A stretch of DNA of 64,000 bases from Prosthecobacter sp. (GTDB lineage Bacteria; Verrucomicrobiota; Verrucomicrobiia; Verrucomicrobiales; Verrucomicrobiaceae): NCBI RefSeq assembly GCF_014879935.1, contig NZ_JACSRD010000169.1, forward strand, positions 62,001 through 126,000, written 5' to 3'. The notes under the pieces are model-generated. The model searched no databases. It saw only the letters and a list, made by a program, of their open reading frames with translations, and was not told the origin of the DNA. Position numbers and translations under genes: made by a program. Below are positions 53,490 through 56,111 of the stretch, one piece after another (within the stretch, counting starts at the first letter, position 1; each line of letters begins with the position of its first letter).

Positions 53490-54902
53490 TCATTTCGTGC
53501 TCTGACCGCTCCACACCGGCCACCACGCGTCGAACTCGCTCGGGCGCACTTTGATGCGCACGAGGTTGTTCGCATGAAGCGAGAGCAGCCGCTCCTCGAT
53601 GAGCTCGAGGAAGTGCTCGCGGTCGCTGGCGGTGATGTTTTTCGCCGTCCAGCGACGGAGGAAGTCCGCCGCCTGCGGCTTGGTCATGCGTTTCACGACC
53701 ACCTCGCGGGCGAGGTCCTTCAGCTCCATGCGGTAGCCGATGGCGATGCGGTCCGGGGAGCCCATCTCGCCGCGGATGACGCCATAGCGGATGCACGACT
53801 CCTCGTAGGCATGCACAAAGACCTCCCGCAGCACCTCCACGCGGTTCAGCTCATACACGGCGAGGATGCCCGTCGTGTAATCCCGCACCGGCACGCCGGT
53901 GAAGGACAGCGGGCACATGTTTCCGCGGATGAGCGGGATGTTTGCCGCGAGACGCGAGGTGCGCTTGTTCCCATCGAGGAAGGGCTGCAGATAAGGCATC
54001 TGCACCATGAGGAAGAAGCAGCACTCCAGCGGATCGTGGATGGCCGCGGCCTTTTGCAGGATGAGGTCAAAGCACTCCTCGATGAGCGCGGGGTTGTTCG
54101 TCGGATGAAAAACACTCCCGCCGATGCCCACCGGCTTCGTGCGCAGGGCTCCCTCCACCTTCCGGCTCTCCAGCAGGTATTCCGTGAGGATCGCGTGCAG
54201 GTTGAGGAAGGTGTAGCGGTTGTAGCCGAGCTGTTCCGGCTCCTCGACGAGGAATTCGATGGCCGCCTTGTGATTCAGAATCATGAGCGCCTCCTGCTGC
54301 CGCGCGGGGTCATCGCTGCGGCCTTGCTGGAGGAGGAAATCCGTCTCCAGCAGGGAGAAGGTGCTGCCCTCGAGGCGGCTGGAGTTCCACACGAGGTCGA
54401 TCACGAGCCGGTCCATCACCTGCCGGGCGTAAGTGCCCGGCGGCATGCCTTCCATGTCCGGCGGCAAGCCGCGGACCCGCAGGTGCGCCCGCAGATTCTC
54501 CGGCAGCCAAGCCGTTTCATTCGGCACATAGCCGTCGAGGAACTCGCGACGGTAGCCCACGGGCTTCCGCAGGCTGTGGTGCTCGCGGAAGTAGTCCTTC
54601 AGCTCCCGGAGCGGATCGCCCGCGTCGGCAGGTTGGTCCTCGCGGAGGAGATTCGACTCGGAAAGCGGGATGGAAACCGGCGCGGGAGCAGGCTGCGTCG
54701 GCGGCTGGGCCGTCCGATACTTCGTCGCCCGTGCTTTGCCGACCCGCTCAAGCTGCCCGGCACGCACCATCTCGTCCAAACGACGTTGCAGCGTGCGGCG
54801 GGAGGCTTCCTCGCCGAATCGTGCCACGATCTCGTCAATGCCGAGGCCATTGCTGACCTCGGATATGGCGCGATTCAGGGCTTCTGGCGTGATTTCTGGC
54901 AT
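53490..54902 (-). CDS. Fic family protein with N-terminal winged helix
   Basis: This encodes 470 residues. Residues 1-65 look like a winged helix-turn-helix (ALNRAISEVSNGLGIDEIVA, then RRTLQRRLDEMVRAGQLERVG). The inhibitory-helix motif is visible as SSRLEG (Ser174...Glu178-Gly179), fitting [S/T]xxxE[G/N]. The Fic core reads LQPFLDGNKRTSRL, with Gln306 where most active Fic enzymes have the catalytic His of HPFxxGNxR; this variant also occurs in related wHTH-Fic proteins as far as I recall. Fic proteins transfer AMP or other groups to target proteins, and the Gln may reduce or change activity. Eight AATCRYGCCA sites overlap its start, so it probably regulates its own promoter. Confidence 0.9.
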   Translation of the reverse strand: MPEITPEALNRAISEVSNGLGIDEIVARFGEEASRRTLQRRLDEMVRAGQLERVGKARATKYRTAQPPTQPAPAPVSIPLSESNLLREDQPADAGDPLRELKDYFREHHSLRKPVGYRREFLDGYVPNETAWLPENLRAHLRVRGLPPDMEGMPPGTYARQVMDRLVIDLVWNSSRLEGSTFSLLETDFLLQQGRSDDPARQQEALMILNHKAAIEFLVEEPEQLGYNRYTFLNLHAILTEYLLESRKVEGALRTKPVGIGGSVFHPTNNPALIEECFDLILQKAAAIHDPLECCFFLMVQMPYLQPFLDGNKRTSRLAANIPLIRGNMCPLSFTGVPVRDYTTGILAVYELNRVEVLREVFVHAYEESCIRYGVIRGEMGSPDRIAIGYRMELKDLAREVVVKRMTKPQAADFLRRWTAKNITASDREHFLELIEERLLSLHANNLVRIKVRPSEFDAWWPVWSGQSTK

Positions 54903-54973
54903 GATTGGCGCGATTTTGGCGTGATAATGGCACGATTCAAGAGCCTTTTGGCATGATTTTCAAAATCGTGCCA
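54866..54973. promoter_or_regulatory. Iteron array (TGGCRYGATT x7 plus one inverted copy)
   Basis: Direct copies of TGGC[GA][CT]GATT (one ends ATA) start at 54866, 54885, 54897, 54906, 54917, 54928 and 54949. An inverted copy, AATCGTGCCA, lies at 54964-54973. The last two form the palindrome TGGCATGATT...AATCGTGCCA. Several spacings are 9-12 bp, near one helical turn. The array runs from within the first codons of the Fic gene (start 54902) across the divergent gap toward the SMP-30 gene (55026), as expected for a multi-site operator, possibly bound by the Fic protein's own winged helix. Confidence 0.8.
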
Positions 54974-55025
54974 AAGCAACGACGGGCTTGCTCTTTGGCC
55001 TCCGATCTACTGCAATCGCCCAGCC

Positions 55026-56111
55026 ATGTCCCTTCGACCCATCCTGCTGCTCCTTCCGGGCCTCCTCCTCACTTCCTGCTCGTCCATGCGATCGCCCATC
55101 GTGCCCGGAGCGGTGCCCAAAGACCACGGAGCCATCGGAGCGACCGAAGGCCCGGCGTGGAAGGACGGCTCGCTCTACTTCACCGATGGCAAGCACATCA
55201 ACCGCCTCGGCCCGGACGGCAAAACAACCGTCTTCCGCCACAACGCCTCCAACGGCCTGCTCTTCGACCGTGAAGGCCGCCTCGTCGCCTGCGAGTCCGG
55301 CCTGCGCCGAGTGACACGAACTGAGAAGGACGGAAGCATCACCGTGCTGGCGGATCGCTTCGAAGGAAAACGTTTCAACACACCCAACGACCTCTGCATG
55401 GACTCGAAGGGCCGGATTTACTTCACCGATCCACGCTATGGCTCGCGTGCGGGGATGGAGATTCGCCAAAAGTGTCTCGTTTCATTTCCCTTTCCCGTTC
55501 AGCCACAGTTCTTCACGGGTCCAGGTCTTACAGCAGGTTTGCGTGGTGCAGCCAGATTAAAGGTGATCGAGAACAACATCGACAATCTATTAAAAGACAC
55601 ATTCCACCCGCACACCCACGGAGAGGGAGTGTATCGCATTGATGGCCCTAAAAATGTAAAGCTGATACTTGATGGGGGAGGCGTTGCGATTCTCGAGCGT
55701 CCCAACGGCATCCTCATCTCTCCAGACGACCGTTTTCTCTACATCGCCGACAACAATAACAACACGCACGGCGGCTCGCGGAAGTTGCTGCGCTACACGC
55801 TCGATCCAAACGGCGATGTGAAGCCCGGCACGCGGAAAGTGATCTTCGACTGGAAGGACGGTCGCGGCCCCGATGGCATGAAAATGGATGCCGAGGGCCG
55901 CATTTACGTCGCCGCCGGCACGAACAAGGCCACGGACTACGAAACGACACGCTTCAAAGCCGGCTGCTACATCCTTTCGCCCTCCGGCAGGCTCATCGAC
56001 TTCATCCCGACCTCTCCCGACGAGTGCTGCAACTGCGCCTTTGGCGGCAAAGATGGCAAAACACTCTTCATTACCTCCGGCGGCCATCTGTGGAGCGTTC
56101 CTCTGAAATGA
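55026..56111 (+). CDS. SMP-30/gluconolactonase-family lipoprotein with internal insertion
   Basis: This encodes 361 residues. The lipobox LLTSC (Cys18) follows MSLRPILLLLPGLL. The beta-propeller of the SMP-30/gluconolactonase/LRE family is marked by ATEGPAWKDGSLYFTD, NDLCMDSKGRIYFTDPRYG, RPNGILISPDDRFLYIAD and DGMKMDAEGRIYVAA; the propeller binds a metal and opens sugar lactones. About 50 residues (roughly 148-197) between FTDPRYGSRAGMEI and HGEGVYRIDG have no counterpart in the usual family pattern, and the DNA there (about 55467-55617) is visibly more AT-rich. The frame is intact. It is divergent from the Fic gene, and its stop overlaps the next start (ATGA). Confidence 0.85.
   Translation: MSLRPILLLLPGLLLTSCSSMRSPIVPGAVPKDHGAIGATEGPAWKDGSLYFTDGKHINRLGPDGKTTVFRHNASNGLLFDREGRLVACESGLRRVTRTEKDGSITVLADRFEGKRFNTPNDLCMDSKGRIYFTDPRYGSRAGMEIRQKCLVSFPFPVQPQFFTGPGLTAGLRGAARLKVIENNIDNLLKDTFHPHTHGEGVYRIDGPKNVKLILDGGGVAILERPNGILISPDDRFLYIADNNNNTHGGSRKLLRYTLDPNGDVKPGTRKVIFDWKDGRGPDGMKMDAEGRIYVAAGTNKATDYETTRFKAGCYILSPSGRLIDFIPTSPDECCNCAFGGKDGKTLFITSGGHLWSVPLK

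Follow-up and report, generated by a model that had tools for sequence, protein, structure and literature searches.

The winged-helix Fic gene and its repeat array

The stretch of DNA analysed here (the window) comprises 64,000 nucleotides of a Prosthecobacter sp. contig (NZ_JACSRD010000169.1, positions 62,001 to 126,000). On its minus strand, at 53490–54902, is an open frame with its ATG at 54902, which encodes a 470 aa protein consisting of a winged helix at the amino-terminal end followed by a Fic domain. Over the 5' region of this gene, on the side of a divergent SMP-30 gene, lies an array of short repeats, or iterons. Related genes carry arrays of their own; their repeats vary from one subfamily to another, in step with the residues that begin the predicted recognition helix.

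An AlphaFold2 model of the protein (predicted local distance difference test, pLDDT, 88.3; predicted template modelling score, pTM, 0.70) places the winged helix at residues 1–66 (54705–54902, minus strand), with helices at 6–14, 22–29 and 35–47, strands at 51–54 and 61–64, and a wing at 51–64. The third helix, residues 35–47 (54762–54800, minus strand), is the predicted recognition helix, as indicated by the model and by covariation with the repeats; residues 34–40 read SRRTLQR. A linker of low confidence (residues 68–88) leads to the Fic fold, and residues 385–465 are helical and without strands in the full-length model, this part not having been folded or searched alone. The protein belongs to the Fic/Fido fold (PF02661), with a Pfam Fic match of 39.8 bits against a cut-off of 24, and the Fic part of the model compares with FICD 4u0u at Z 25.0 and a root-mean-square deviation of 2.6 Å over 237 residues.

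The array (54866–54973), identified by site matching and shuffles, consists of eight sites with the consensus TGGCRYGATT. Six direct copies on the plus strand are exact: 54866–54875 (TGGCGCGATT), 54885–54894 (TGGCGTGATT), 54897–54906 (TGGCATGATT), 54906–54915 (TGGCGCGATT), 54928–54937 (TGGCACGATT) and 54949–54958 (TGGCATGATT). Another direct copy, at 54917–54926 (TGGCGTGATA, plus strand), has one mismatch, and an exact inverted copy is at 54964–54973 (TGGCACGATT, minus strand). The initial annotation of this DNA had listed seven direct copies and one inverted copy; the eight sites stand, with the one at 54917 imperfect. Start-to-start distances are 19, 12, 9, 11, 11 and 21 bp between the direct sites and 15 bp to the inverted site. 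The first two sites are entirely within the Fic coding sequence and the third holds the start codon (54900–54902), which agrees with the earlier placing of the array over the Fic start. The further suggestion that it fills the divergent promoter does not hold, as it ends 52 bp before the SMP-30 ATG (55026); the array belongs to the Fic 5' region and not to the whole divergent region.

Against the seven exact sites in 110 bp, no dinucleotide shuffle of the 2 kb around them (2000 made) and no shuffle of the whole window (60 made) had more than one. A search of the 7.74 Mb assembly for further arrays, as had been advised, found paired exact same-strand copies at most 30 bp apart at this locus only (five overlapping matches). 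A wider regulon was dropped as a candidate on that search, which concerned exact pairs, single, inverted and imperfect sites elsewhere not being surveyed. An RNA element was also considered and set aside, as there is no Rfam match at the gathering score in 54500–55300 and no terminator-like site in 54780–55120. Plasmid replication iterons lie at an origin next to an initiator gene; the present array runs across the Fic start, and its contig is at least 126 kb long, no search having been made for a replication gene. One more exact copy, at 54817–54826 on the minus strand, lies within the winged-helix coding region and might be a chance occurrence or a ninth site.

Arrays across the family

Do the repeats accompany related genes? 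From 155 relatives the best 80 were kept, and 77 of these together with the window (L011, L014 and L053 were left out) were tested for near-identical 9-mers at −180 to +20 against shuffles. The test gives p<0.05 at 61/78 loci compared with 4/80 randomly drawn upstream regions of other open reading frames (ORFs) of the same loci, and the floor p at 51/78 compared with 2/80. An enlarged set of 176 non-redundant members, 174 of them testable with 60 shuffles each, has 137 that pass at p<0.05. By hidden Markov model (HMM) score the pass rates are 99/128 above 600, 18/23 at 470–600, 16/19 at 300–470 and 4/4 among the distant members below 300. Non-redundant members gathered later pass in 27 of 28 cases. 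A 5' region with multiple candidate sites, the arrangement expected of self-binding autoregulators, is thus present in 137/174 and 27/28 members. The initial annotation had called for a comparison of the upstream regions of homologous genes; arrays recur there, and the absence from orthologs that it had named as a refutation was not borne out. Repeat units in the family include TGGCGCGATT, TGTCGCGA, TTGCGCAA, CTCGCCATT, TGGCCGTA, TGTCCTA and TAGTGACAAAA. Among the loci that fail is L060, which has no winged helix in frame (p 0.485); L051 (p 0.554) and L066 (p 0.485) have a winged helix and fail as well.

The spacing of the repeats follows the helical turn. Neighbouring sites of the same orientation (255, in 133 members) show distance peaks at 11, 20, 30–31 and 40–41 bp, and the mean resultant of these distances is 0.76 at a period of 10.0 bp. 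Such whole-turn spacing of direct repeats would place bound proteins on the same face of the DNA.

Paralogs of one genome, e.g. the four in G870 and the four in G931, differ in their consensus units. Repeat similarity is below 0.6 in 15/21 within-genome pairs and in 65% of all pairs, little excess over random; hence the repeats of paralogs are no more alike than those of random members. One of these paralogs, L125, has an A-rich and doubtful consensus. Several paralogs per genome (up to four) are common in the phylum of a Simkania metagenome-assembled genome (MAG), where some belong to a second subfamily, whose helices read ERSVRRWL and whose repeats are of the TGGCCGTA type.

Repeat sequence and the recognition helix

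If the winged helix reads the repeats, the two should vary together. Over 133 members, repeat similarity correlates with winged-helix identity at a partial r of 0.25, given the identity of residues 112–460, a value reached by 0 of 300 permutations, which ignore ancestry. The nine-residue window at residues 32–40 has a partial correlation of 0.42, whereas the maximum is 0.18 in 114 such windows of residues 112–460, each corrected for the rest of that region. With 47-residue windows the maximum is 0.179 within residues 112–460 and 0.25–0.26 for windows that start at residues 20 and 30. In a covariation scan of 384 variable columns the top five are residues 36, 194, 39, 40 and 35.

Repeats were classed in 116 of the 151 members with a score of at least 470 and enough upstream DNA. 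Residue 40 is Tyr or His in 21/21 members of the TTGC type and Arg in 93/95 of the TGGC and TGTC types. The TGGC type (61 members) has Ser, Pro or Ala at residue 34 in 60 and Arg, Lys or Gln at residue 35 in 60, and the TGTC type (34 members) has Asn, Thr or His at residue 34 in 20. On the tree of the Fic part, repeat class changes at least 19 times. A recognition rule was then fixed before the later members were examined (L225–L230 had been fetched earlier, with annotation alone seen). Among 28 later members, five are without a rule call and 10 without a callable repeat; in the 16 callable on both sides the rule predicts the repeat class in 13, a number reached by random relabelling in 19/100000 trials. 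The suggestion in the initial annotation that the protein binds its own sites thus gains indirect support, both from the arrays upstream of homologs and from this covariation.

Could some other host factor occupy the repeats, while the winged helix acts elsewhere? Binding of the array by the winged helix is a prediction, and the domain could have other targets. A separate factor would, however, have to account for repeats that shift with residues 32–40 of the Fic protein itself, that move with the gene across phyla and that differ between paralogs in one genome, and such a factor is very improbable. Binding by the protein's own winged helix fits these observations, and the window protein very probably binds its own repeats, as far as can be judged from the sequences.

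The gene and array as a unit

Comparison with close relatives shows what is inherited together. DNA similarity to L008 (96.5%) and L010 (87.9%) by blastn spans 53502–54975 (minus strand) and ends on both sides, so that gene and array are kept in these two loci and the flanks are unrelated. The common stretch holds one gene and the array; a co-inherited antitoxin gene, as in Fic/Doc modules, is not found in it. After the Fic stop, L008, L009 and L010 have a hairpin and then a run of T, which by eye looks like a terminator; it is absent from the window, where similarity ends at 53502.

The SMP-30/gluconolactonase-like gene (55026–56111, plus strand; Pfam SGL) was originally thought to share the operator with the Fic gene. 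The array does lie between the two divergent genes, and an SMP-30 gene adjoins the Fic gene in L009 and L011 as well. These are 2/7 close relatives (upstream flank of up to 3 kb); the fetched flank of the other 5/7 has no SMP-30 match, and in L008 and L010 the similarity stops just past the outermost site. On this synteny a shared operator was dismissed as extremely unlikely, and the SMP-30 gene is regarded as a neighbour and not as part of the system, which leaves the array as a putative operator of the Fic gene. Within the SMP-30 gene, the DNA of segment 55463–55693 cannot be aligned with the L009 and L011 orthologs; both sides align and the frame is open.

The altered Fic motif

The Fic motif of the window protein, QPFLDGNKRTSR (residues 306–317, 53952–53987, minus strand), is degenerate and has Gln for the catalytic His, a change that the initial annotation passes over. 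This position is Gln in 204/204 aligned members, and the motif Gly is Val in 168/204; the first 80 relatives were found by peptide patterns that leave out the His/Gln position, the later search profile was built from Gln-bearing members and the viral scan pattern included the Gln position. The family therefore departs from the catalytic AMPylase motif HxFx(D/E)GN(G/K)RxxR. Other residues are retained: Phe in 202 of the 204, Asp in 200, Asn in 203, Lys in 201 and both Arg in 202 each. Before the Fic core is an inhibitory-helix motif, SSRLEG (residues 174–179, 54366–54383, minus strand), of the (S/T)xxxE(G/N) form, with Ser174 in 204/204, Glu178 in 203/204 and Gly179 in 204/204. This motif is that of class II Fic proteins.

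Might the Fic domain still be an active modifying enzyme, working via Gln or another residue, with self-regulation serving to limit a toxic activity? Retention of the motif residues and of the inhibitory Glu in nearly all of the 204 members fits a pocket under selection. The loss of His throughout, and of the motif Gly in most members, argues otherwise. So does CccR of Yersinia pseudotuberculosis, among studied Fic proteins the nearest precedent for repression of the own gene, in which mutation of the catalytic His abolished growth inhibition (PMC9755527). Persisting enzyme activity is thus unlikely, but deserves consideration. The preferred alternative is a sensor: judging from the residues kept and lost, the pocket probably no longer catalyses and may bind nucleotide.

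The window's assembly (7.7 Mb) has nine Fic-domain matches. Among the other eight, all seven readable motifs have His and that of L275 is unreadable, and in 0/6 of those tested is there an array upstream of the first start (p between 0.10 and 0.98). The initial annotation considered multi-site iterons unusual for a Fic gene; this is borne out by the other Fic genes of the assembly, but within the family such arrays are common. Four more distant and shorter Fic proteins (~345 aa) of the window's phylum, L101, L102, L103 and L105, also have Gln for His, and all four have upstream repeats (p<0.05); the kind may extend beyond the family described here. A search for a named family gave no NCBIfam model match to three members at E<=1, and in PADLOC only the PDC-S04 and SoFic models hit these three, in their Fic part (E down to 1e-13).

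Relation to known systems

FICD/HYPE is an AMPylase and deAMPylase with a catalytic His and tetratricopeptide (TPR) repeats. Its structures (4u0u, 6i7l) match the Fic part best, both by structure and by sequence in the PDB, with ~19% identity over the aligned part.

CccR resembles the present family in joining a Fic fold to a helix-turn-helix (HTH) and in binding short repeats in its own promoter to repress its own gene. CccR has a C-terminal HTH, two 10-bp inverted repeats, a catalytic His and AMPylation of FtsZ (PMC9755527), whereas the present family has an N-terminal winged helix, many mostly direct repeats and Gln for His. SoFic (3eqx, 3zcn) and CbFic2 of Coxiella likewise combine a Fic fold with a winged helix, and CbFic2 binds DNA; their winged helix is C-terminal, the CbFic2 motif is HPFDDGNGRIGR and CbFic2 bound random DNA sequences (PMC10628234). 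The catalytic His of the CccR, SoFic and CbFic2 layout is not found in the window family, and its winged helix is N-terminal. RptR, a repressor of a restriction-modification island, is similar in repressing its own promoter via three short direct repeats and in its link to phage defence; it differs as a small dimeric regulator, and the main text of its report is without the word Fic (PMC12255303).

A possible role of Fic-fused HTH domains in regulating fic expression was already raised in the Fido paper, which in its treatment of these fusions mentions neither arrays nor covariation, nor that the catalytic His is lost (PMC2686095). Fic and Doc clades that lack conserved residues may be inactive according to Khater 2015 (PMC4454073), and the present family may be among these clades. 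A Waddlia toxin-antitoxin paper has Fic in its reference list only (PMC10880633). For the missing His together with co-evolving arrays, no recognised description was found in searches of the open-licence PubMed Central literature, subscription papers not being covered.

A proposed self-wired repressor

How would such a gene be controlled? Several molecules of the protein would fill the gene's own iteron array, probably on one face of the DNA, and the filled array would cover the promoter and the start codon, resulting in repression. Gene and array would be inherited as a single unit, the array changing with the recognition helix; as the two change together, each member would be wired mainly to itself. 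The Fic pocket, with its phosphate-binding residues and inhibitory Glu retained, probably binds nucleotide or another ligand, which would set the affinity for DNA. Taken as a whole, the account is considered likely: a family of regulators whose winged helix, joined to a His-less Fic fold acting as a non-catalytic sensor, would bind cooperatively to the array of the gene that encodes it and so repress that gene.

The evidence for binding is silent on the sign of the response, and a protein that activates its own gene by positive feedback has to be considered. Some family arrays extend beyond 150 bp on the upstream side of the start, as is possible for upstream activator sites. In the window and in many relatives, however, sites lie over the start codon or immediately ahead of it, so that protein bound there would impede transcription or its initiation, and CccR represses. 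Activation is accordingly judged quite unlikely, and self-repression is preferred.

Several points weigh against the account. Residue 194, in the Fic part, ranks second in the covariation scan, which indicates that shared ancestry contributes to the covariation. The independent TGTC/TGGC pairs that are well supported number only six, with 4.9 as expected, 0 opposite and a median p of 0.06, the predictor being a combined rule picked post hoc; single-column tests on independent pairs do not single out residue 34 or 35, as only the combined rule did. The TTGC contrast provides one independent pair only. The recognition rule is wrong for L256, L257 and L260, and some of the later members closely resemble one another or a member of the training set. 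Once L241, L248 and L257, which are near others of the later set, and L242, which shares 97% identity with a training member, are dropped, 10/12 agree, a number reached in 60/100000 relabellings. The array test fails in 37/174 members. A sigma-70-like promoter was not found near the array, so overlap with the promoter is assumed. Ligand sensing is suggested by the retained residues only, and binding and repression are predicted from sequence comparison.

Distribution and neighbouring genes

The N-terminal winged-helix Fic family is sporadic in distribution. The window's nearest named relatives are Verrucomicrobiaceae MAGs, and named records with members belong to Verrucomicrobiota, Chlamydiae, Proteobacteria, Desulfobacterota, Acidobacteria and a Myxococcales MAG, as well as to plasmids. 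In the window's phylum 18/387 genomes have a match at E<=1e-40, with none among the matches listed for three same-genus genomes. At E<=1e-100 the numbers are 12/398 for the phylum of a Variovorax, 71/232 for that of the Simkania MAG, 4/247 for that of Desulfogranum marinum, 11/247 for that of a Pyrinomonadaceae MAG, 12/175 for that of a Myxococcales MAG and 5/289 for the class of a Hyphomicrobiaceae MAG. Matches occur in 35 plasmid records, 25 of them with a single place that spans at least 80% of the query, and integrase or recombinase genes are nearby in seven of the plasmid records inspected. IMG/VR has 11 loci, and a single match, at 27.7% identity and over 58% of the query, comes from phage records.

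A constant partner gene was sought among downstream genes and rejected: no Pfam family occurs in more than two of 63, these being taken from 70 co-directional ORFs that start at most 400 bp downstream (L145, L127, L103, L102, L241, L247 and L251 were left out) by a crude ORF calling that yields some spurious ORFs. With PADLOC, among the matches listed (25/93 families), models of the SIR2-Argonaute type match three of the 63 genes, DrmD two, and type I methyltransferase, SngA, BrxH and HmaA one each. On plasmid pLA6_011 (L126, 5980–10552) a member lies 74 bp before a SIR2-domain gene, and the next gene matches Piwi below threshold; the arrangement resembles a short-Argonaute defence operon. A SIR2 gene is next to the family member on a Sagittula plasmid (L242) too. 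On the Undibacterium plasmid pUYM01 (L228, 1836–4460), multiubiquitin, ThiF-family and DUF6527 genes are just upstream of the member, with a WYL gene before those.

Concluding remarks

A broader picture can be offered tentatively, and with some doubt. The His-less Fic fold may have given rise to widespread, horizontally spreading transcription factors, with private, co-evolving multi-site operators that insulate paralogs from one another. Their Fic pocket would be a ligand sensor and, in some plasmid members placed beside anti-phage systems (SIR2 with short Argonaute), may time the expression of these systems.

If the account is true, a fold known mainly as an enzyme became part of a self-wired transcription switch, and the role of a Fic pocket that lacks its catalytic residue becomes a directly testable question. 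As candidate sites lie beside each member's own gene, the family constitutes a natural table of DNA-reading helix versus DNA site, from which a winged-helix recognition code could be read and tested. It may also be a source of one-gene regulators that work without cross-talk.
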